A stretch of 64,000 nucleotides of DNA from NCBI RefSeq assembly GCF_003319095.1, contig NZ_QOHI01000003.1, positions 124,001 through 188,000 on the forward strand. The letters run 5' to 3'. The translations under genes were made by a program, and so were the position numbers. Below, piece after piece: positions 2 to 21,807 of this stretch; the first letter of the stretch is position 1, and each line of letters opens with the position of its first letter. Under the pieces are notes generated by a model that was not told where the DNA came from, searched no databases, and worked only from the letters and a program-made list of their open reading frames with translations. This DNA is from Blastococcus sp. TBT05-19 (GTDB taxonomy: Bacteria > Actinomycetota > Actinomycetes > Mycobacteriales > Geodermatophilaceae).

Positions 2-1066
2 AGCTCCGCGATGGGTGTCTACGGGATCGTGCTGGCCGGTTGGGCGTCGGGCTCGACGTACCCGCTGCTGGGCAGCCTGCGCAGCGCCGCGCAGATGGTC
101 AGCTACGAGATCGCCATGGGGCTGTCGATCGTCGCGGTGTTCCTCTACGCCGGGTCGATGTCCACCTCGGAGATCGTCGCCGCACAGGCCGACGGGAACC
201 GGCTGGACTTCTTCGGCCTCGAGTTCACCGGCCCGAGCTGGTTCGCCGTGCTGCTGCCGGTCTCCTTCGTCATCTACGTCATCGCCGTCGTCGGTGAGAC
301 CAACCGGGCGCCCTTCGACCTCCCCGAGGCCGAGAGCGAGCTGGTCGGCGGCTTCCACACCGAGTACTCGTCGCTGAAGTTCGCGCTGTTCTTCCTGGCC
401 GAGTACATCAACATGGTCACCGTCTCGGCCCTGGCCGCGACGCTGTTCCTCGGTGGCTGGCGGGCGCCCTGGCCGATCTCGATCTGGGACGGCGCCAACA
501 CCGGCTGGTGGCCGCTGCTCTGGTTCTTCCTCAAGGTCGTCGCCGCGCTGTTCGTCTTCATCTGGCTCCGCGGCACGCTGCCCCGGCTGCGCTACGACCA
601 GTTCATGCGCTTCGGGTGGAAGGTGCTGGTCCCGACCGCGCTGGTCTGGATCCTCGTCGTCGCCACCATGCGCACCGTCTCCCGCGAGGCCGACCTCTCC
701 ACCGGTCAGGTCGCGCTCTTCGTCGGCGTCCCCGCGGCGGTGCTCGTGCTCGCCGGCCTGCTGCTGGCCAGCCGGTCGGCCAACCGGGACACCCGGGTGA
801 TGGCCGAGCAGGCCTCCGCCGGCGCGGTGCACGCCACCGACCCCGAGCCGGAGGTGCTCCCGCCCGCCGGGGCCCGACGCCGGCCCGCCGGTGGCCCGAG
901 CCGTGCCGAGGGTGGCTTCCCCGTACCGCCGATGGACCTGAAGGTGCCGCCCTCGCCGCGCATCCGCCGGGAGAGCGCTGCGGCCGGGACGACGGACCCC
1001 GGCACGGCCGTCGTCGGCACCGGCCGCCGCGGTACCGCCACGATCGAGGAGGACGGCGATGTCTGA
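2..1066 (+). CDS. nuoH: NADH-quinone oxidoreductase subunit H (5' end cut off by window)
   Basis: Membrane subunit of respiratory complex I that helps form the quinone site and couples quinone reduction to proton pumping. The frame is open to the first base, and the codons before the internal ATG at 11 read SSA, continuing the conserved NuoH sequence [14 protein letters not shown]. The gene therefore starts outside the window, and the ATG at 11 is not the real start. The family loop [21 protein letters not shown] is present, followed by further membrane segments. A hydrophilic, Pro/Ala-rich tail of about 90 residues follows the last membrane segment, longer than in enterobacterial NuoH. The 3' end overlaps nuoI by 8 bases, so the genes are in one operon. 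Confidence 0.96.
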
Positions 1067-1622
1067 GATCGAGCGCGCACCGGCGAGGGAGGCGAAGCCC
1101 GCCCTCCGCGACGCCGTCACCCCGGCGCCGGCCCAGGGGTTCGGGGTCACCTTCGCCCAGATGTTCCGGACGGTGACCACCGAGCAGTACCCGTTCGAGC
1201 CCAAGGTGACCAAGCCGCGCTACCACGGCCGGCACGTGCTCAACCGGCACCCGGACGGGCTGGAGAAGTGCGTCGGCTGCGAGCTGTGCGCGTGGGCCTG
1301 CCCCGCGGACGCGATCTACGTGGAGGGCGGCGACAACACCGAGGACGCCCGCTTCTCCCCGGGTGAGCGGTACGGCGCGGTCTACCAGATCAACTACCTG
1401 CGCTGCATCTTCTGCGGGCTGTGCATCGAGGCCTGCCCGACCCGGTCGCTGACCATGAGCAACGACTTCGAGCTGGCCGACGACAACCGGCAGGACCTGA
1501 TCTACACCAAGGAACAGCTCATGGCCCCGCTGCTGCCCGGCATGGAGGCGCCCCCGCACGCCATGCGCCTGGGCGAGGACGAGAAGGACTACTACCTGCG
1601 CGCGCCGGAGGTCCGGCCGTGA
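1059..1622 (+). CDS. nuoI: NADH-quinone oxidoreductase subunit I (two 4Fe-4S clusters)
   Basis: Peripheral-arm ferredoxin-like subunit of complex I that carries electrons to the terminal cluster near the quinone site. Two CxxCxxCxxxC motifs are visible at Cys71/74/77/81 and Cys116/119/122/126, as expected for two 4Fe-4S clusters. The length of 187 residues is normal for actinobacteria. The ATG at 1059 lies inside the 3' end of nuoH. The stop overlaps the nuoJ start (GTGA), so translation is probably coupled along the operon. Confidence 0.97.
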
Positions 1623-2428
1623 ACCCCGACGTCGTGATCGGCACCGGCGAGGCCGTCGTCTTCTGGATCCTCGGCCCGGTGGCGCTGGCCGGGGCGCTCG
1701 GCATGGTGTTCAGCCGCAACGCGGTGCACTCCGCGCTCTGGCTGGTCAACACCATGCTGGCGCTCGGCGTCTTCTACGTCGTGCAGTCCGCGCCGTTCCT
1801 CGGTGCCGTGCAGATCATCGTCTACACCGGCGCGATCATGATCCTGTTCCTCTTCGTGCTCATGCTGGTCGGGCGCGACTCGTCGGACTCGGTCGTGGAG
1901 ACCCTGCGCGGGCAGCGCATCGCCGCCACGCTGCTCGGCATCGGCTTCGCCGGGCTGGTCGGCGCCGGGATCGCCCGGGCCACCCAGGACCTCCCGGTCG
2001 CCGGGCTCGGCGACGCCCAGGCCGAGGGCAACATCCCGGCGATCGCCGAGGTGCTCTTCACCCGGTACCTGCTGGCCTTCGAGGTGACCAGCGCGCTGCT
2101 GATCACCGCCGCCGTCGGCGCGATGGTGCTGGCCCACATCGAGCGGGAGCCCGGCAGCCGGCAGAGCCAGAAGGAGCTGTCCCGCGCGCGGTTCCTCACC
2201 GGCGACCGCCCGCAGACCTACCCGGGCCCGGGCGTCTACGCCCGCGCCAACTCCGTGGCCGCCCCCGCGCTCCTGCCCGACGGCCGGACGCTCGGGGAGA
2301 CGGTCGCCACCGGCGTCGAACCCCAGGAGGTCGAGCAGATGCCCCGTCCCACCGGCCGGGAGCAGCTGGGCAGCCCGGACGCCGCCCTCGGCACGCTCGG
2401 CCCGGCGGACGGCGGGGAGCAGCGGTGA
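1619..2428 (+). CDS. nuoJ: NADH-quinone oxidoreductase subunit J
   Basis: Membrane subunit of complex I. I place the start at the GTG at 1619, which forms a GTGA overlap with the nuoI stop and gives a protein of 269 residues beginning [16 protein letters not shown]. The frame is open further upstream, but that stretch is inside nuoI. Five hydrophobic segments occupy roughly residues 10-180. The conserved segment with [16 protein letters not shown] is present. A hydrophilic tail of about 90 residues follows, an actinobacterial feature. The stop overlaps nuoK by four bases. Confidence 0.95.
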
Positions 2429-2724
2429 CGATCAGCTACTACCTGGTCCTGGCCGCGATCCTCTTCACGATCGGCGCCGTCGGCGTGCTGGTCCGCCGCA
2501 ACGCGATCGTCGTGTTCATGTGCATCGAGCTGATGCTCAACTCGGTGAACCTGACGCTGGTCACCTTCGCCCGGTCCACCGGCACGATCGACGGCCAGAT
2601 CATGGCGTTCTTCGTCATGGTCGTCGCCGCGGCCGAGGTCGTCATCGGCCTGGCCATCATCATGTCGATCTACCGGACCCGACGGTCCGCCTCGGTCGAC
2701 GACGCCAACCTGCTGAAGTACTGA
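2425..2724 (+). CDS. nuoK: NADH-quinone oxidoreductase subunit K
   Basis: Small membrane subunit of complex I, 99 residues with three transmembrane helices. The conserved glutamates involved in proton translocation are in the motifs [11 protein letters not shown] and [11 protein letters not shown]. It starts with the GTG at 2425, overlapping the nuoJ stop, and is followed 16 bases later by nuoL. Confidence 0.97.
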
Positions 2725-2740
2725 CGGGGACGGACATCCA

Positions 2741-4636
2741 GTGCCTGCTGAAGGGTTGCTCGCCGCCTCCTGGCTGCTGATCGCGCTGCCGCTCGCCGGC
2801 GCCGCCGTCCTGCTGCTGGGCGGGCGCCGCACCGACCGCTGGGGTCACCTGCTGGGCACGGCGACGGTGGCGGCCGCCTTCGTGCTCGCCGTGGCCTGCA
2901 CGGTCCAGCTCGCGGGGACCGACGGGCGGTCGGTCGACGTCGAGCTGTTCACGTTCATCTCCGCCGGGGAGCTGGACGTGACGGCGGGGCTGCTCTACGA
3001 CCCGCTCTCGGCGGTCTTCGTCCTGCTGATCACCGGCGTCGGGTCGCTGATCCACGTCTACTCGATCGGTTACATGGCGCACGACCCCGCGCGCCGGCGG
3101 TTCTTCGCCTACCTGAACCTCTTCGTCGCCGCGATGCTGCTGCTGGTCCTCGGCAACAGCTACGTCGCGCTCTACGTGGGCTGGGAGGGCGTGGGCCTCG
3201 CGTCCTACCTGCTGATCGCCTTCTGGTACACCCGCCCGGCCGCGGCCACCGCGGCGAAGAAGGCGTTCATCATGAACCGCGTCGGCGACGTGGGCCTGGC
3301 CATCGCCGTCTTCATCATGTTCGCCCAGCTCGGGACCACGTCCTACGCGGGCGTGCACGCCGGGGTGGCCACCCTCGCCGGCGGCACGGTCACCGCGATC
3401 GGCCTGCTCCTGCTGCTCGGCGCGTGCGGCAAGTCGGGTCAGTTCCCGCTGCAGGCGTGGCTGCCCGACGCCATGGAGGGCCCGACCCCGGTGTCGGCGC
3501 TCATCCACGCCGCGACCATGGTCACCGCCGGCGTCTACCTGATCGCCCGGTCGGCGCCGGTCTACGACGAGACGCCGACGGCGCGCACCGTCGTCCTGGC
3601 CGTCGGTGCGGTGACGCTGCTCATCGGCGCGATCGCCGGCTGCGCCTACGACGACATCAAGAAGGTGCTGGCCTACTCGACGGTCAGCCAGATCGGCTAC
3701 ATGTTCCTGGCCGTCGGGCTCGGGCCCGCGGGCTACGTCGCCGGCCTCGCCCACCTGCTGGCGCACGGCTTCTTCAAGGCCGGGCTGTTCCTCGGCGCGG
3801 GGTCCGTCATGCACGCGATGGACGACCAGGTGGACATGCGCCGGTTCGGGGCGCTCTGGAAGAAGCTGCCGGTCACCTTCGTCACCTTCGGGCTGGGGTA
3901 CCTGGCCCTGATCGGCTTCCCGTTCCTGTCCGGTTACTTCACCAAGGACGCGATCATCGAGGCCGCCCTGGACCGGGGCGACACCTGGGGCTGGGTGCTC
4001 GGCGGGGTGGCGGTGCTCGGTGCCGGCCTGACCGCCTTCTACATGACCCGGCTGATGCTGATGACCTTCTTCGGCGAGGCCCGGTGGACCGACGGCGTCC
4101 ACCCGCACGAGTCGCCGTCGGTCATGACCGCCCCGATGGTCGTGCTGGCGGTCGGCTCGGTGTTCTCCGGCGCGCTGCTCGTCTCGGTCTTCCCGCTGTC
4201 GGGCTGGCTGGAGCCGGTGTTCGGCGAGCCGGCGGAGGCCGAGCACGTCGTCGCCCCCGCCGTCATCGGCCTGGTCGTCACCGTCGTGATGGCGCTCGGC
4301 GTCCTCGCCGCCTGGCTGTTCGTCGGCCGCCGCGAGGTACCGGTCACCGCGCCGGTGCGGGTCTCGCCGGTCACCCGCGCGGCCCGCAACGCGCTCTACG
4401 TCGACACGATCAACGAGTCGCTGTTCATGCGCCCGGGGCAGTGGCTGACCCGCGCGCTGGTCTGGTTCGACAACCGCGGTGTGGACGGCGCGGTCAACGG
4501 CCTGGCCGCGGGCCTCGGCGGCTCGTCGTCGCGACTGGGCCGCGCGCAGAACGGCTTCGTACGCACCTACGCGCTCGGCATGCTCGGCGGCGCCGTCATG
4601 GTCGCCGGCGCACTGCTGGCGGTGACCGCCGGATGA
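2741..4636 (+). CDS. nuoL: NADH-quinone oxidoreductase subunit L
   Basis: Antiporter-like proton-pumping subunit of complex I, 631 residues with many transmembrane segments. Family motifs include [13 protein letters not shown], the antiporter-like stretch [35 protein letters not shown] (shown in part; see the conserved Lys and His), and [11 protein letters not shown]. It starts at the GTG at 2741 and ends at 4636, inside the ATGA that opens the 17-codon frame between nuoL and nuoM. Confidence 0.97.
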
Positions 4637-4686
4637 GCGGCTCCCTGTTCCTCCCGATCCCCGAGACGGTGGTGCCCCGATCGTGA
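4633..4686 (+). CDS. 17-codon mini-ORF linking nuoL and nuoM (hypothetical)
   Basis: The open frame [17 protein letters not shown] begins with ATG at 4633, overlapping the nuoL stop as ATGA. It ends with TGA at 4684-4686, overlapping the nuoM GTG start as GTGA. It therefore fills the 46-base nuoL-nuoM spacer with two perfect four-base overlaps, the same junction type used elsewhere in this operon. It may serve only to carry ribosomes from nuoL to nuoM, or it may be chance. No family is recognised. It is too short for any function to be assigned. Confidence 0.35.
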
Positions 4687-6290
4687 GCGCGTCCCTCTAC
4701 CTGGTGGCGATGATCGCGCTGCCCGCCGTCGGCGCCGCCGTCGTCGCCGCGCTCCCGCGCGAGCGGTCCCTGCTCGCCAAGCAGGTGACCCTCGGGGTCA
4801 GCCTCGCCGTCCTGCTGCTGGCCGTCCTGGCCACGCTCGCCTTCGACCCCGGTGGCGAGCGGTTCCAGCTGACGTCGTCGATCTCCTGGATCCCCGACTT
4901 CGGCGCGGACTTCGCCCTCGGCGTCGACGGCATCGCCCTGGTGATGCTGCTGCTCATCGGCGTCCTGGTGCCGCTGGTCGTCGGGGCGTCCTGGCACGAG
5001 GCGGACGCCGGGCCGCGCCCGCCGCGGGTGTTCTTCGCCTGGCTGCTGCTGCTCGAGGCGATGATGGTCGGCGTCTTCGCCGCCACCGACGTGCTGCTGT
5101 TCTACGTCTTCTTCGAGGCGATGCTCGTCCCGATGTACTTCCTGATCGGCAGCTTCGGCGGGCCGCGCCGGCAGTACGCGGCGGTCAAGTTCTTCCTCTA
5201 CAGCCTGGTCGGCGGCCTGATCATGCTGGCCGCGGTCATCGGGCTCTACGTGGTGAGCACCAGCCAGCTGGGCGAGGGCACCTTCGCCTTCGACGCGCTG
5301 CGGCAGCTGGACATCGACCCCGACGTGCAGAAGCTGCTGTTCCTCGGCTTCTTCATCGCCTTCGCCATCAAGGCCCCGCTGGTGCCGCTGCACACCTGGC
5401 TGCCCGACTCCGGCGCCGAGGCCCCGATCGGCGGCGCGGTGCTGCTCGTCGGCGTCCTGGACAAGGTCGGCACGTTCGGCTTCCTGCGCTACTGCCTGCC
5501 GCTGTTCCCCGACGCCTCGCGGTTCTTCGCGCCGTTCGTCCTGGTGCTCGCCGTCGTCGGCATCCTCTACGCCGCGCTGCTGGCCATGGGGCAGAGCGAC
5601 ATGAAGCGGCTGGTCTCGTACACGTCGATCTCGCACTTCGGCTTCATCGCGCTGGGCATCTTCGCCTTCACCACCGAGGCCGGCACCGGCGCGGTGCTGT
5701 ACATGGTCAACCACGGCATCGCGACGGGCCTGCTGTTCATCGTCGTCGGCATGCTCATCGCCCGGGGCGGCTCGCGGGAGATCGGCGACTACGGCGGCGT
5801 CGCCAGGCACGCGCCGAAGCTGGCCGGGGCCTTCCTGGTCGCGGGCCTGGCCTCGCTGGCCCTGCCGGGCACCAACAGCTTCGTCAGCGAGTTCCTGGTG
5901 CTCATCGGCGCGTTCCCCGAGCGCCCGGTGTTCACGGTCCTCGCGACCGCCGGCATCATCCTGGCCGCGCTGTACATCCTGCTCATGTACCAGCGCACGA
6001 TGCACGGACCGGCCCGCGGCGTGCTCCTCGAGGCCGTCGACGACGCGCCCGCCGGCCCGCCGCCGACCGGGGGTGGGGGAGCCACCGCGGTCGCCGCCGC
6101 GCCCGCCCCCGCGCGCGGGGTGCTGCGGGTGCGTGACCTCGACCGTCGCGAGCTCGCCGTCGTCGCCCCGCTGATCGCGCTGATCATCGGGCTGGGCGTG
6201 TACCCGCAGCCGCTGCTGGACCTGATCGAGCCCGCCGTCAGCGCCACCATGAGCGACGTCGGCGCCGCCTCCGGAGGTACGGACCGATGA
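4683..6290 (+). CDS. nuoM: NADH-quinone oxidoreductase subunit M
   Basis: Second large antiporter-like proton-pumping subunit of complex I, 535 residues. Recognisable segments are YVFFEAMLVPMYFLIG, the lysine helix FFIAFAIKAPLVPLHTWLPD, and MKRLVSYTSISHFGFI. It starts with GTG at 4683. A hydrophilic loop rich in Pro, Ala and Gly near residues 455-480 precedes the last membrane segments. The stop overlaps the nuoN ATG. Confidence 0.97.
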   Translation: MSASLYLVAMIALPAVGAAVVAALPRERSLLAKQVTLGVSLAVLLLAVLATLAFDPGGERFQLTSSISWIPDFGADFALGVDGIALVMLLLIGVLVPLVVGASWHEADAGPRPPRVFFAWLLLLEAMMVGVFAATDVLLFYVFFEAMLVPMYFLIGSFGGPRRQYAAVKFFLYSLVGGLIMLAAVIGLYVVSTSQLGEGTFAFDALRQLDIDPDVQKLLFLGFFIAFAIKAPLVPLHTWLPDSGAEAPIGGAVLLVGVLDKVGTFGFLRYCLPLFPDASRFFAPFVLVLAVVGILYAALLAMGQSDMKRLVSYTSISHFGFIALGIFAFTTEAGTGAVLYMVNHGIATGLLFIVVGMLIARGGSREIGDYGGVARHAPKLAGAFLVAGLASLALPGTNSFVSEFLVLIGAFPERPVFTVLATAGIILAALYILLMYQRTMHGPARGVLLEAVDDAPAGPPPTGGGGATAVAAAPAPARGVLRVRDLDRRELAVVAPLIALIIGLGVYPQPLLDLIEPAVSATMSDVGAASGGTDR

Positions 6291-17451: not shown

Positions 17452-17943
17452 TCAGCGGTAGTTGTCGAACTGCAGCGCGACGTCGAGGTCGGCGCCCTTC
17501 AGCAGCTGCTGCACCGCCTGCAGGTCGTCGCGCTTCTTGCCGCTCACCCGCAGCTGGTCGCCCTGGATCTGCGCCTGGACGCCCTTGGGGCCCTCGTCGC
17601 GGATGAGCTTGGCGATCTTCTTCGCGACGTCGGACTCGATGCCCTGCTTGATCGTCGCGCCGATCTTGTAGCCCTTGCCCGAGGACTGCGGGTCACCGGC
17701 GTCGAGCACCTTCAGCGAGATGCCGCGCTTGATCAGCTTCTCCTTGAACACCTCGAGCGCGGCCGCGACCCGCTCCTCGGTGTCGGCCTGGAGGGTCACG
17801 CCCTCGTCGCCGGCCCAGGCGATCGTGGCGTTGGTGCCGCGGAAGTCGAAGCGCTGCGACAGCTCCTTGCCCGCCTGGTTCAGCGCGTTGTCGACCTCCT
17901 GGCGGTCCACCTTGCTCACGACGTCGAACGATGCGTCGGCCAT
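17452..17943 (-). CDS. YajQ family cyclic di-GMP/nucleotide-binding protein
   Basis: A 163-residue member of the YajQ family (UPF0234), small proteins with two RNP-like folds. In some bacteria they bind cyclic di-GMP or nucleotides and affect transcription. Family sequence is clear: [32 protein letters not shown] at the N-terminus (shown for identification, residues 5-36) and [19 protein letters not shown] near the C-terminus. The start ATG at 17943 has a GGAGAGGAAG-like ribosome site just upstream. The synteny with htpX resembles that in mycobacteria. Confidence 0.94.
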
Positions 17944-18020
17944 GTCTTCCTCTCCGTGGGGGGCGGTCCCGCCACCGGGACTCGTCGCGGGGACCCGTCA
18001 CCACCGGTCCTCGCGTCTTG

Positions 18021-18026
18021 TAGTCT
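18021..18026 (+). promoter_or_regulatory. Candidate -10 element for tRNA-Tyr
   Basis: TAGTCT fits the actinobacterial TAnnnT -10 and lies 31 bases upstream of the mature tRNA. No convincing -35 is visible at the usual distance. Confidence 0.4.
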
Positions 18027-18056
18027 CTCCCGCGTACCGAGCAGCACGCACCGCAC

Positions 18057-18138
18057 GGCGGGTTGCCCGAGTGGCCAATGGGAGCGGACTGTAAATCCGT
18101 CGGCTTAGCCTTCGAAGGTTCGAATCCTTCACCCGCCA
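18057..18138 (+). tRNA. tRNA-Tyr(GTA)
   Basis: An 82-base class II tRNA. The acceptor arms GGCGGGT (18057-18063) and ACCCGCC (18131-18137) pair fully, with A as discriminator. The anticodon loop reads CTGTAAA with anticodon GTA. A long variable arm follows, as expected for bacterial tRNA-Tyr, then a T arm with GGTTCGAATCC. CCA is not encoded. A strong terminator hairpin follows. Confidence 0.96.
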
Positions 18139-18148
18139 CGTTCGGTAC

Positions 18149-18180
18149 GACGGCCCCCGACCTGCAGGTCGGGGGCCGTC
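18149..18180 (+). terminator. Terminator hairpin after tRNA-Tyr
   Basis: A perfect 14-bp stem, GACGGCCCCCGACC paired with GGTCGGGGGCCGTC, closes a TGCA loop, followed by a short pyrimidine-rich stretch. It lies between tRNA-Tyr and the convergent TadG-like gene and may stop transcription from both sides. Confidence 0.75.
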
Positions 18181-18196
18181 GCCTTCTCCGGCTCGC

Positions 18197-18628
18197 TCAG
18201 GGCAGCGTGGGCGCCCGCGCGCTGGCGACGGCGGTGCGCTCCAGCAGCTCACCACCGAGGAAGAGCCAGTCGAACGCGATCCGCACGTAGCGGGTGCAGC
18301 GCACCGTCACCTCGGCGCCGTCGGTCTCGGCCGACCAGCCGTCCAGCTCCACCCCGCCGTCGGCCAGCTGGTCGGCGACCGCGGCCTGGGCCGCGGCCCG
18401 GGTCAGGGGCAGCTCGGTGCCGACCCCGCGGGCGTAGACCGCCGCCTCGTCGGCCTGGTTGGCCGCTGCCAGCGCGGCGCTGTCGCAGACCGCCTGCACC
18501 TCCTGCTGCTCGAGGAAGGCGTCGGAGGCGGCGATGGCACCGAAGGCCATCAGCGCGGCGACCACCCAGCAGACGAGGACGAAGGGGAGCGTCGACCCCC
18601 GCTCCGGGTCGTGGATGTCCGCGCGCAC
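18197..18628 (-). CDS. TadG-like secreted/pilus-assembly protein (hypothetical)
   Basis: A protein of about 143 residues with a short basic N-terminus (RADIHDPERGS), one hydrophobic helix (TLPFVLVCWVVAALMAFGAIA) and then the typical TadE/TadG-like continuation CDSAALAAANQADEAAVYARG. This organisation is found in Flp-pilus accessory proteins and in stand-alone secreted actinobacterial helicase/pilus-locus proteins. The GTG at 18628 puts the helix close to the N-terminus as in the family. A GTG at 18706 would add 26 residues without a clear ribosome site. No other tad genes are in the window. Confidence 0.65.
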   Translation of the reverse strand: MRADIHDPERGSTLPFVLVCWVVAALMAFGAIAASDAFLEQQEVQAVCDSAALAAANQADEAAVYARGVGTELPLTRAAAQAAVADQLADGGVELDGWSAETDGAEVTVRCTRYVRIAFDWLFLGGELLERTAVASARAPTLP

Positions 18629-18667
18629 GCGGAGGAGCCAAGCAGCCCGCAGGCGTCGTCCACCACC

Positions 18668-18741
18668 TGTGGACACGATCTGTGGACATTGTGGACGGAC
18701 GGTCACCCGGTCCCGTGACGCGCGGCCCGGTCCTGTGGACG
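18668..18741. promoter_or_regulatory. Cluster of four DnaA-box-like motifs
   Basis: TGTGGACA at 18668-18675 and 18681-18688, and TGTGGACG at 18690-18697 and 18734-18741, all in the same orientation. On the minus strand, with one further base, they read GTGTCCACA, ATGTCCACA and twice CCGTCCACA. The last agrees with the high-GC DnaA-box form (T/C)(T/C)GTCCACA. A single further copy lies at 17374-17381. Binding is inferred. The motif could also be a different regulator site. Confidence 0.4.
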
Positions 18742-18852
18742 GCGACGGCGGCGGCGGGCGTCGAGAGGCTGCTCGAGGTCACCCAAGGTGCGACCCGAGT
18801 GGCGGAAGGTCACGACATGACGTAGGCGCCCGGCGTGTCGCCGCGCACGTGC

Positions 18853-18881
18853 TTGTCGCAGTCGATCACGGGAAGCATTGT
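18853..18881 (+). promoter_or_regulatory. Weak promoter candidate upstream of the RGSKWT peptide
   Basis: TTGTCG (18853-18858) and CATTGT (18876-18881) are separated by 17 bases. The match to sigma-70-type consensus is partial. If used, it would give a leader of roughly 85 bases containing the hairpin at 18927. Confidence 0.3.
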
Positions 18882-18926
18882 CTTCGGCGCGGTCCGTATT
18901 CGACGACGCTCTGCCCCCGCGCGTGG

Positions 18927-18950
18927 ATGGCTGCCGCACCAGCCATTTTT
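18927..18950 (+). terminator. U-tract hairpin (attenuator candidate) just upstream of the peptide gene
   Basis: The arms ATGGCTG (18927-18933) and CAGCCAT (18940-18946) form a 7-bp stem with a CCGCAC loop, and the run of T reaches 18950. Classic U-tract terminators are scarce in such GC-rich DNA. This one sits 22 bases before the ATG at 18973, so it would regulate the peptide gene rather than end another gene. Confidence 0.55.
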
Positions 18951-18972
18951 GTCGTGCCCAGAGGGAGGCGCC

Positions 18973-19065
18973 ATGAGCATCACCATGCAGCGTGAGGGTC
19001 GTTCGGTCCGCGGTTCCAAGTGGACCCGGGGCAGCAAGTGGACCCGCGGGAGCAAGTGGACCTGA
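18973..19065 (+). CDS. 30-residue basic peptide with three RGSKWT repeats (undescribed)
   Basis: ATG at 18973 is preceded by a strong ribosome site (GAGGGAGG at 18961-18968). The peptide has a 12-residue head (MSITMQREGRSV), then the hexapeptide RGSKWT three times at residues 13-18, 19-24 and 25-30, and stops exactly at the end of the third repeat. It has eight basic residues and one acidic residue. The repeats use different Gly, Ser and Arg codons, so the repetition appears to be kept at protein level. A hairpin follows the stop, and the next gene is a cyclic-di-GMP phosphodiesterase-like protein. No family is recognised and no function is claimed. Confidence 0.6.
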   Translation: MSITMQREGRSVRGSKWTRGSKWTRGSKWT

Positions 19066-19106
19066 TGGAGGCCTGACAGCCAGCTGTCTCCCTCGAACGG
19101 GTAGTT

Positions 19107-19141
19107 GCGGGACGGTCGACTCTTCGGAGCGGCCGTCCCGC
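19107..19141 (+). terminator. Hairpin after the RGSKWT peptide gene
   Basis: GCGGGACGG (19107-19115) pairs with CCGTCCCGC (19133-19141), a 9-bp stem with a 17-base loop, 41 bases after the peptide stop. It would separate the peptide transcript from the GGDEF-EAL gene that starts at 19312. There is no U-tract. Confidence 0.5.
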
Positions 19142-19311
19142 CTCATGTTCCGGACCCGGTCTGCCGATGAGCCGCGAGGACGGCGCCCTCCCGACGCACG
19201 AGAGGGTCGCGATGACCTCCATCGCTGTTAGCCTTCGCCCGCCCGACGACACGGGGAGTCCAGTTGCAGGTAGCTGAGCAGCACGTTCGCGTGCCAGGGA
19301 GGGCCCGCGCG

Positions 19312-21807
19312 ATGCGCAGCCCTTGGCTGGTGGCGCTGCTCGGACTGACCTTCGGGGTGCCGGTCGGCGTCCTCGTCTTCCTCGGCGGGCCGCTGACGGT
19401 GGACGTCCCGGTCCTGGTGGCCGTCTTCTGCGCCGCCGTCGTCGCCGAGCGGCTGAACGTGCACGTCGAGTTCCGGCGCGAGAGCATCCACAGCTCCGCG
19501 AGCGAGCTGGCCTTCGTCCTCGCGCTGGTCGAGCTGGGCGGCGCGTGGACCGCCCTGACGCGCGCCGCGGCCGTGGCCCTCGTGCTGTCGGCCCAGCGCC
19601 TCCCCGCACCGAAGGTCGTCTTCAACGCAGCGGTCGCCGTGGTGGAGGCCGGCGTGGCCGTGTCGGTGCTGGCCGTCCTCCCGGTCGGCGACGTGACCGA
19701 CCCCAGCACCTGGATCTCCTGCCTGGTCGCCGTCTTCGTGGCCAACGTGGTGGGCGCCTGCTTCGTCGCCGCGGCGATCACGATCACGCAGGGCTACCCC
19801 GGTCGCGCCGTCTGGGCGGGTCTGTTCATCCCGGTCGTCGTCATCGGCCCCGTGGCGGTGCTGATCGGCCTGACGGCCCTGCTGCTGCTGCACGCCACCG
19901 TGTGGTCGTGGCTGCTCATCGTGCCGCTCGGTGGAGCCCTGGCGCTCCTCTACCGCCGGTTCGCAGCGGTCACCCGCGAAGGCGACTCGCTCGAGCAGGT
20001 CTACGAGTTCGCCCGCCGCGTCGAGGAGGTGCAGGCCGACGAGGCCGGCACCCGGCAGATCGTGCAGGCGGTGCGGGAGCTGCTGAACGCCGAGCGCGTC
20101 GCCCTGTGGTTGCCCCCGTACCTCGACGAGGAGCCGCGCCTCGTCGTGGTCTCGGAGGACGGCGCCTCCTGGTACGACGGTCCGGGCGACCCCGACGACC
20201 CGCTCCGGCGGCGTGCCGTGGCCTCGGCCGAGGGAGTTGTGCACGTGGCCGCGGCGCGCGCCGACGACGTGGAGCGGGCCGCGCTGGCCCGCCGCGGGGT
20301 GTCGGACCTCCTGGGTGCACCGGTCACGACGGCGGCCGGCGAGCCCGGCTACCTCGAGGTCTGCGACCGCCGCAGCGACCTGGTGACGTTCAGCAGCAGC
20401 GAGCGCGGCGCGCTGGACTCCATGCTCACCCACGTCAACGCCGCGATCCGCCAGCAGCAGCTGCTGACCCGGATCCGCTACGACGCCGACCACGACCGGC
20501 TGACCGGGCTGCCCAACCGCCAGCGGCTGGCCGCCGAGATCGACCAGCTGCTGTCGGCCGACCCGACCCGCGCGCGGGCCGGGCTGATCCTGGCCTCGCT
20601 CGGCACCTACGCCGACGTCACCGACACCCTCGGTCACGCCGCCAGCGACGAGCTCCTGCTCGTCACCGCCGGCCTGCTCCGCGAGCACGCCCCGCCGCGG
20701 GCCCTGCTGGCCCGCATGGAGCGCGAGCAGTTCGCGGTGCTCCTGCCCGGCCTCTCGCTCGCGGCGACCGAGCAGGCGGCCCGCCGGCTGCGCGAGGCCG
20801 CCGCGACGCGGGTCCGCGTCGCCGGGCTGGACCTGGAGGTCTCGCTCACCCTCGGCGTCGTCGCCGCGCCCGTGCACGGCACCGACGCCGGCATCCTCAT
20901 GCAGCGGGCCGACGTCGCCCTGCTCGCGGCCGAGGGCTCCGGCGGGGTGGCCAGCTACCACCCGGTCCTGGACCAGCAGAGCCTCCGCCGTCTCCAGCTC
21001 GGCACGGAGCTCGAGCAGGCCATGGCCGACCGCCAGATCGCCGTCGTCTTCCAGCCGGTGATCGACGCCCAGTCCAACGACATCGTGTCGGTGGAGACGC
21101 TCGTCCGGTGGGTCCACCCCCGGTACGGCAACGTCCCGCCGGAGGAGGTCATCGGGCTGGCCGAGCAGATCGGCCGGATCGGCGCGATCACCGACCACGT
21201 CCTCGACCTCGCGCTGGCCCGCTGCCGCAGGTGGCTCGACCAGGGCATCGCCCTGTCGGTCGCGGTCAACGTGTCGGCGCGCTCGCTGGCCGAGCCGGAC
21301 CTCGTCGAGCGGATCCGCGGCGCCCTGCTGCGGCACGACGTCCCGGGGGAGCTGCTCGTCCTCGAGTTGACCGAGAGCAGCGTCGTCGACGACGCCGTGC
21401 GGGAGAGCTCCGTGCTCGACGACCTGCACGACCTGGGGCTGCGGCTGTCCATGGACGACTTCGGCACCGGCTACTCGTCGCTGTCGCAGCTCCGGCAGCT
21501 GCCCATCGACGAGCTGAAGATCGACAAGTCCTTCGTCCTCACCATGGCCACCAGCCAGGGGGAGTCGTTCATCGCCCGCTCGATCATCGAGCTCGCGCAC
21601 AACCTCGGGCTCTCCGTGGTCGCGGAAGGCGTCGAGGACGAGATGACGCGCAACCAGCTGGCCACCATGGGCTGCGACAAGCTGCAGGGCTTCCTGATCA
21701 GCCGCCCGCTGCCCGAGGACCGCCTCGAGAAGTGGCTGCTGGCCCGGGCCGGCGTCCGTTCGGCGACCCCGGGAGCCCCGCACCGCCGGCTGTTCGTACG
21801 GACGTGA
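19312..21807 (+). CDS. Membrane GGDEF-EAL protein, probable cyclic di-GMP phosphodiesterase
   Basis: An 831-residue protein. Several transmembrane segments occupy residues 1-215, a GAF-like sensor about 230-375, GGDEF about 390-540 and EAL about 560-810. The cyclase signature is degenerate (EREQF at 470-474), so cyclase activity is unlikely. The EAL domain keeps its key residues: E595 in ETLVR, the TES glutamate, DDFGTGYSS from D715, K736 in KIDKSF and AEGVED. It therefore probably degrades cyclic di-GMP. The ATG at 19312 has AGGGAGG eight bases upstream, a better start than the TTG at 19264. Confidence 0.9.
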   Translation: MRSPWLVALLGLTFGVPVGVLVFLGGPLTVDVPVLVAVFCAAVVAERLNVHVEFRRESIHSSASELAFVLALVELGGAWTALTRAAAVALVLSAQRLPAPKVVFNAAVAVVEAGVAVSVLAVLPVGDVTDPSTWISCLVAVFVANVVGACFVAAAITITQGYPGRAVWAGLFIPVVVIGPVAVLIGLTALLLLHATVWSWLLIVPLGGALALLYRRFAAVTREGDSLEQVYEFARRVEEVQADEAGTRQIVQAVRELLNAERVALWLPPYLDEEPRLVVVSEDGASWYDGPGDPDDPLRRRAVASAEGVVHVAAARADDVERAALARRGVSDLLGAPVTTAAGEPGYLEVCDRRSDLVTFSSSERGALDSMLTHVNAAIRQQQLLTRIRYDADHDRLTGLPNRQRLAAEIDQLLSADPTRARAGLILASLGTYADVTDTLGHAASDELLLVTAGLLREHAPPRALLARMEREQFAVLLPGLSLAATEQAARRLREAAATRVRVAGLDLEVSLTLGVVAAPVHGTDAGILMQRADVALLAAEGSGGVASYHPVLDQQSLRRLQLGTELEQAMADRQIAVVFQPVIDAQSNDIVSVETLVRWVHPRYGNVPPEEVIGLAEQIGRIGAITDHVLDLALARCRRWLDQGIALSVAVNVSARSLAEPDLVERIRGALLRHDVPGELLVLELTESSVVDDAVRESSVLDDLHDLGLRLSMDDFGTGYSSLSQLRQLPIDELKIDKSFVLTMATSQGESFIARSIIELAHNLGLSVVAEGVEDEMTRNQLATMGCDKLQGFLISRPLPEDRLEKWLLARAGVRSATPGAPHRRLFVRT

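Follow-up and report, generated by a model that had tools for sequence, protein, structure and literature searches.

A short open reading frame in a 64,000-nucleotide stretch of DNA from Blastococcus sp. TBT05-19 (the window) is a real, conserved gene, a conclusion that is well supported, and the tandem-repeat peptide that it encodes is paired with a membrane GGDEF/EAL protein specified by the adjacent downstream gene. Our best reading is that the peptide regulates this membrane c-di-GMP phosphodiesterase, perhaps as a ligand; binding, export and effect are what we infer. The presence of similar pairs in other actinobacteria suggests a previously unrecognised peptide-and-sensor system. The interpretation offered in a preliminary description of this DNA was partly supported, as it was right about the presence of a real gene and silent on the GGDEF/EAL neighbour. 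The functions proposed there were those of a nucleic-acid-binding or membrane-active peptide or of a precursor to a modified peptide; the GGDEF/EAL neighbour, the tryptophan-motif peptides of other families and the tryptophan-repeat tails of S8 proteases point to a different function.

A conserved tandem-repeat peptide gene

The features of the locus, with the basis on which each was assigned, were as follows.

18853..18881 (+): putative promoter, TTGTCG - 17 nt - CATTGT (by eye, 29-sequence alignment)
18888..18972 (+): conserved 5' region of the peptide gene (two alignments and a sequence model)
18961..18968 (+): ribosome-binding site GAGGGAGG (sequence; G-rich site kept in the 29-sequence alignment)
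18973..19065 (+): peptide gene, MSITMQREGRSV followed by 3 x RGSKWT (translation, relatives and pN/pS)
19009..19062 (+): three hexapeptide units, 19009-19026, 19027-19044 and 19045-19062 (sequence and translation)
19107..19141 (+): strong GC hairpin, a probable terminator without a T-run (folding energy versus shuffles)
19226..19234 (+): putative extended -10 (TGTTAGCCT) of the GGDEF/EAL gene (intergenic alignments)
19312..21807 (+): GGDEF/EAL partner gene, with GAF, degenerate GGDEF and intact EAL domains (Pfam and a 57-protein site check)

Translation of positions 18973 to 19065 of the forward strand gave MSITMQREGRSVRGSKWTRGSKWTRGSKWT and a stop codon (30 codons), and bore out the preliminary description of a 12-residue head and exactly three RGSKWT units, the last of which ends at the stop, behind a strong ribosome site (GAGGGAGG, 4 nt ahead of the ATG). 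The codons of the three units were CGC, CGG and CGC for arginine, GGT, GGC and GGG for glycine and TCC, AGC and AGC for serine; with codons that differ and units that are alike at the protein level, the earlier view that there had been no recent DNA duplication was upheld. This was the sole perfect 3x6 amino-acid tandem repeat in the six frames of the window, and none was present in 30 codon-shuffled windows. A chance origin of the repeat was ruled out by these shuffled windows together with the counts of unit evolution given below. A longer overlapping frame with a GTG start (18835-19065, 76 amino acids) could absorb the peptide gene, which, as had been anticipated, is easily missed or fused to a longer frame. 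The window peptide had no match in Pfam, NCBIfam or PADLOC and is to this extent undescribed, as claimed; solved structures yielded nothing relevant to the one repeat peptide tested, and an Rfam analysis of 17500-20500 placed a tRNA alone above its family threshold.

Frames of this type recurred across the Geodermatophilaceae, so that the check for a conserved frame, free of frame-breaking changes, in relatives was passed. A DNA search with 18820-19150 detected matches in 29 of 60 genomes, including the source genome and every one of the other 22 from its genus, and all 29 oriented loci contained a Shine-Dalgarno (SD) sequence and a short frame in which tryptophan units are repeated (one additional locus duplicated another entry). 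Within the family, a sequence model built on the 5' region had matches in 101 of 112 genomes, or in 92 of 96 when only good genomes are considered; the four good genomes without a match were from two genera (g9 and g11). A scan of the genomes of 84,980 species for an exact pattern detected 62 loci; the records concerned are labelled Blastococcus, Geodermatophilus, Modestobacter or Klenkia, bar one unverified 'Bacillus sp.', although this restriction to the family was partly by design since the pattern had been drawn from Geodermatophilaceae. The exception ('Bacillus sp. AZ43', organism unverified; SPQJ01000015.1, locus L167) holds a Geodermatophilaceae locus and is probably mislabelled. The collected set consisted of 97 distinct coding sequences, whose frames were picked for having tryptophan and an SD sequence, and derived from 195 matches, many of them repeat copies of one locus; five of these matches (three distinct second copies) head no tryptophan peptide. 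Outside the family, the best match of the 5' model (G156) was rejected as it lay in coding sequence without a peptide; the other matches of that model were weaker. A search with a peptide profile gave two weak matches (G190 and G358).

The usual unit in the 97 coding sequences was R-x-x-[K/R]-W-[G/S/T/N/A], with arginine at the start of 261 of 264 units and with Ser, Gln or Met also found at position 4 in some species. Two or more regularly spaced units were present in 76 of the sequences; the spacing rule excluded the other 21, namely 20 with an extra tryptophan in the unit (mostly of the Modestobacter type R-x-W-[K/R]-W-x) and one single-tryptophan form. All units of a gene were identical in protein in 71 of the 76 genes, and the DNA of the units differed in 66 of these 71. 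Comparison of the units of one gene detected a pS of 0.398 and a pN of 0.0105 by simple count, with a pN/pS of 0.027 over the set. Between species, 21 different x-x pairs were observed, one of which came from a gene read out of register (L180) that was retained in the unit counts. The evolutionary pattern is unusual in that the units are fixed alike within a gene yet change jointly between species, and the simplest reading is that every unit of a gene must present the same residues. A repeat acting at the level of DNA or RNA was ruled out, as the copies differ synonymously and Lys and Arg swap between species. In some close species pairs, units at the same position were more alike than units within a gene. 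A comparison of 32 pairs, however, showed no overall difference (1.71 versus 1.62 differences per 18 nt), and hence both long-lived units and occasional homogenisation are likely.

Conservation at the locus was strongest upstream of the ATG in an alignment of relatives. The TTG of the putative promoter was invariant in the 29-sequence alignment, and the best-kept block of the 5' region, GACGACGCTCTGCCCCCGCGCG, was located at about 18902-18923. Sequence conservation, rather than fold, was the standout feature of this region: a leader hairpin had been claimed and was not borne out by folding energy, with 18889-18975 folding no better than shuffles (z 0.13). Predicted pairing of the SD sequence over 96 relatives was 0.74, versus 0.73 with shuffled upstream sequence, and an SD-sequestering structure was rejected because folding equalled that of shuffles in both comparisons. 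A hairpin that changes register between genera was visible by eye in the 5' region. The 3' hairpin of the preliminary description was confirmed at 19107-19141 (-30.8 kcal/mol; z -4.48 versus shuffles) and probably acts as a terminator. Across 21 loci, the best 28- to 48-nt fold past the stop ranged from -22.5 to -48.1 kcal/mol, these being raw energies with no shuffled control. A generic promoter and terminator scan of 18700-19330 returned nothing; its terminator rule requires a T-run, which is absent from the 3' hairpin. The sequence TG[T/C]TA... was kept across 27 loci in two intergenic alignments and, since this putative extended -10 follows the hairpin, the peptide gene and the GGDEF/EAL gene probably form separate transcripts. 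Second copies of the conserved 5' region were found in some Geodermatophilus-type genomes, at L106 (7803-7716, reverse strand), L117 (8173-8128, reverse strand; also L147) and L056/L150. In L106 and L056/L150, the second copy heads a small open reading frame (ORF) with a hydrophobic segment and not a tryptophan peptide; the 5' element can therefore serve a gene other than that of the peptide.

Pairing with a membrane GGDEF/EAL gene

Several hydrophobic segments were seen by eye at the N terminus of the partner protein. The Pfam EAL domain was matched with an E value of 1.5e-66, and the EAL catalytic residues were kept in 57 of 57 aligned proteins; by domain and catalytic residues the partner is thus a predicted EAL c-di-GMP phosphodiesterase. 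The GGDEF signature, intact in at least 31 of the 57 proteins and present in other degenerate forms among them, is lost in the window protein (MEREQF), which does not have the intact signature of a diguanylate cyclase. The N-terminal domain was by far the fastest-changing part of the protein, with a mean difference over 39 genes of 0.57 as compared to 0.22 for GAF-GGDEF and 0.12 for EAL, and a profile of this domain had no match among solved structures.

The GGDEF/EAL gene was the next clustered gene on the same strand in all 39 neighbourhoods (the window and 38 fetched loci). Of the 62 named loci, 7 were too short for the adjacency check and were left out; in all 55 that could be tested, the peptide gene preceded a membrane GGDEF/EAL gene. 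The peptide stop and the inferred first residue of the GGDEF/EAL protein were about 162-240 bp apart. A blind rule, which sought an upstream ORF preceded by an SD sequence and carrying a C-terminal tryptophan motif, selected 33 of 39 GGDEF/EAL genes and none of 243 further genes drawn from the same neighbourhoods, many of these controls being mutually orthologous; when the motif was allowed anywhere in the ORF, the values were 34 of 39 and 4 of 243. Synteny was general in the region, with YajQ and MaoC genes also kept, and the upstream side of the peptide gene often held an inserted gene without a Pfam family. Overall, the pairing of the peptide gene with a membrane GGDEF/EAL gene was strong and well supported. 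Co-variation of the peptide with the N-terminal domain was weakly positive (partial Mantel r 0.22, p 0.0005, n 39). With neighbour-gene controls the values were r 0.18 and p 0.03 (n 21), and the same subset without controls gave r 0.15 and p 0.06; tests of this type overstate significance, and the co-variation is only suggestive.

A YajQ-family gene (Pfam DUF520; window 17452-17943, reverse strand) is located ~1 kb upstream of the peptide gene, and 37 of 39 neighbourhoods kept such a gene within a few kilobases. Proteins of the YajQ family have been associated with c-di-GMP binding. Among the titles and abstract openings listed from an open-access library, none described the peptide or the pairing; this search also took in passages of PMC13118837, and subscription papers and preprints fell outside it.

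Tryptophan motifs beside related GGDEF/EAL genes

The GGDEF/EAL proteins of the Geodermatophilaceae and of other families formed one clade (FastTree local support of 1.00, midpoint root). Within this clade, an upstream tryptophan-motif peptide was recognised by eye before 30 of 35 sampled genes of other families, in a table that includes loose motifs (HKWY and VVWL) and an ORF truncated by the end of its contig (L215). The five genes without a convincing peptide came from f15 (four) and f11 (one). Four loci stood outside this table, L254 with a tryptophan motif and L249, L252 and L253 with none seen. The upstream ORFs contained DGGSWTFA repeats, DGNTWTFV repeats, ...PGALWGYTSGALWG, ...TEDLVWN at the stop or, behind a signal-like start, GVSWN repeats; many small upstream proteins combined a hydrophobic start with DLVWN, DFDWN or GDIVWQ (one with four GDIVWQ-like units). 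A looser form of the blind rule, applied to outside-family loci taken mainly from the top of match lists and not at random, was positive for f16 (17/17), f13 (5/5), f9 (2/2), f7 (1/1), f11 (1/1) and f15 (1/4) and negative for f5 (0/2), f12 (0/1) and g9 (0/1 testable). Relative to the by-eye table, this rule misses the f5, f12 and g9 examples and scores one f15 gene and one f11 gene as positive.

The tryptophan-motif peptides of other families mostly had a signal-like start (by eye; 7 examples scored), and a signal-like hydrophobic stretch was found in 0 of 97 Geodermatophilaceae peptides. The net charge of nine examples from elsewhere ranged from -3 to +2, as compared to +3 to +9 for the 97 Geodermatophilaceae peptides. 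A kinship between the peptide groups would rest on position and the tryptophan motif and not on alignment. Peptide genes of f16 (probably Micromonosporaceae) shared a different, conserved upstream motif, TGTGGCAC[C/G]ATC (L270, L271, L273-L275, L285, L287, L291-L297, L268 and L254). At L278 (G243, f10), a signal-like start followed by a run of GGSLN repeats without tryptophan was encoded upstream of the GGDEF/EAL gene.

An S8 protease with a tryptophan-repeat tail was encoded upstream of 5 of 7 testable genes in a second GGDEF/EAL clade and of 9 of 19 testable GGDEF/EAL genes outside the order, and Pfam Peptidase_S8 was confirmed in all 14 of these proteases. One locus, L320, belongs to f15 and is inside the order. 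Two more of the outside-order genes followed small peptides with RGTRWG or RGVSWS at the C terminus; the remaining 8 of the 19 had neither a tailed protease nor a tryptophan peptide. The tails were mostly of period 5 (GLRWN, GAGWR, GSQWS, GATWS and GSSWR), as compared to period 6 in the window peptide. In the source genome itself, an S8 protease with (SGVSW)15 was found directly before another GGDEF/EAL gene, and its 15 units had 5 distinct DNA spellings and no amino-acid changes.

L319 (G000:C7:948500-958500), 3617-5935 (-) and 1003-3819 (-): S8 protease / GGDEF/EAL gene pair of the source genome

In its RG-x-x-W-x spelling, the window peptide resembles the S8 tails and small peptides, and this resemblance, with position and motif, suggests that the window peptide may be a stand-alone form of the S8-protease tail. 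The tailed proteases had a partial resemblance to the model of the cyanobactin protease PatA, far below its cut-off. For a further GGDEF/EAL gene of the source genome (G000:C7:667119-669587), the search reported a single in-frame TGA within the matched segment, together with an open frame of 891 codons.

Possible functions of the peptide

We put at about even the chances that the tandem-repeat peptide works with the adjacent membrane GGDEF/EAL protein, the tryptophan unit being recognised and altering c-di-GMP breakdown. The unit, as a ligand or regulator, would be recognised by the fast-changing hydrophobic N-terminal domain, and recognition would alter the breakdown of c-di-GMP by the EAL domain; several identical units could provide several copies of one ligand or one multivalent ligand. 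Recognition would probably occur outside the membrane, because the peptide in most other families starts like a secreted or membrane-anchored protein. The main problem for a ligand is the 0 of 97 Geodermatophilaceae peptides with a signal-like stretch; a peptide of this kind might have some exit route or might act from inside. A wider proposal, which we hold only tentatively and consider somewhat improbable as a whole, is that of a widespread, undescribed actinobacterial system in which adjacent membrane GGDEF/EAL proteins are gated by tryptophan repeats; whether made alone or carried as the tail of a secreted S8 protease, the repeats would be species-specific ligands. If this were true, cells would pass information on kin, the state of the envelope or the activity of proteases into c-di-GMP. 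To our knowledge, the input signals of many actinobacterial membrane GGDEF/EAL proteins are unidentified. An adjacent short peptide with a readable unit would be a directly testable ligand for one large GGDEF/EAL group and might reveal a path by which peptides signal into c-di-GMP.

Alternatively, the tryptophan repeat could be an envelope- or membrane-binding element, acting as an anchor tail of the S8 proteases or as a small membrane-active peptide alone, and the GGDEF/EAL protein could share its regulon or process without sensing the peptide. Regularly spaced tryptophan with Arg or Lys would suit binding at a membrane interface, and the regular spacing observed here, the long tails of the S8 proteases and the basic nature of the Geodermatophilaceae peptides would all fit such a role. 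However, this explanation, which we regard as unlikely, accounts poorly for identity within a gene yet change between species (pN/pS 0.027) and for the recurring adjacency to related GGDEF/EAL genes (33/39 versus 0/243).

An intracellular peptide that binds RNA, DNA or a nucleotide, for instance by sequestering c-di-GMP through its repeated Arg, Lys and Trp, would be consistent with a basic and aromatic composition, with the lack of a signal-like stretch in all 97 family members and with linkage to an EAL protein, a degrader of c-di-GMP. Such a role is doubtful, as counterparts elsewhere have a net charge near zero or slightly on the acidic side and mostly begin with a hydrophobic segment, and the peptide is without a family match. 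It is similarly improbable that the peptide is a modified-peptide precursor with multiple cores, which enzymes encoded elsewhere would cut at Arg and perhaps cross-link between Lys and Trp. Identical cores are repeated and start with Arg in 261 of 264 units, genes for M48 and M1 peptidases occur in the surrounding region (neither is adjacent), and the tailed S8 proteases partly resemble the PatA model. Nevertheless, Pfam searches of eight neighbouring proteins (seven window neighbours and the gene often inserted upstream, with other neighbours inspected by eye) detected no modification enzyme or transporter, in agreement with the preliminary description, which had seen no such enzyme nearby; the maturation enzyme that marks a ribosomally synthesised and modified peptide was absent from these eight. 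Furthermore, a Lys-Trp cross-link could not be general because position 4 is variable, being Ser, Gln or Met in some species. Least probable is a leader peptide whose translation controls GGDEF/EAL transcription by attenuation, as the order of a short ORF with Trp codons, a hairpin and the GGDEF/EAL gene would allow, but the putative conserved extended -10 lies past the hairpin, counterparts elsewhere mostly have signal-like starts, and residues other than Trp, which has one codon, are under selection, with synonymous far exceeding non-synonymous changes at five informative positions rather than selection limited to the codons of one amino acid.

The preferred reading, in which the peptide regulates the adjacent phosphodiesterase, has partial parallels among known systems. 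As in ComX-ComP and AIP-AgrC, a small peptide gene lies beside a membrane sensor gene, the spelling of the ligand would be species specific and the membrane sensor domain changes fast; the conserved adjacency of such peptide-receptor pairs was found here in 39 of 39 neighbourhoods and all 55 testable loci. The output, however, would be a GGDEF/EAL c-di-GMP enzyme instead of a histidine kinase, there are several identical units per precursor with no modification or export gene found beside it, and the Geodermatophilaceae peptide has no signal sequence. YfiR-YfiN likewise has a small, often secreted-looking product encoded beside a membrane c-di-GMP enzyme, but the regulator there is a folded periplasmic protein of Gram-negative bacteria, whereas the actinobacterial candidate is a tandem-repeat peptide, and the activity conserved in its partner is that of a predicted EAL phosphodiesterase. 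Several identical short cores per precursor that differ between species are also found in yeast alpha-factor and the cyanobactins. S8 proteases (PatA and PatG) accompany the cyanobactins as S8 proteases accompany tryptophan repeats in related loci; in contrast to the cyanobactins, no cyanobactin-type modification enzyme was seen in the neighbourhood, and the proteases carry the repeats themselves.
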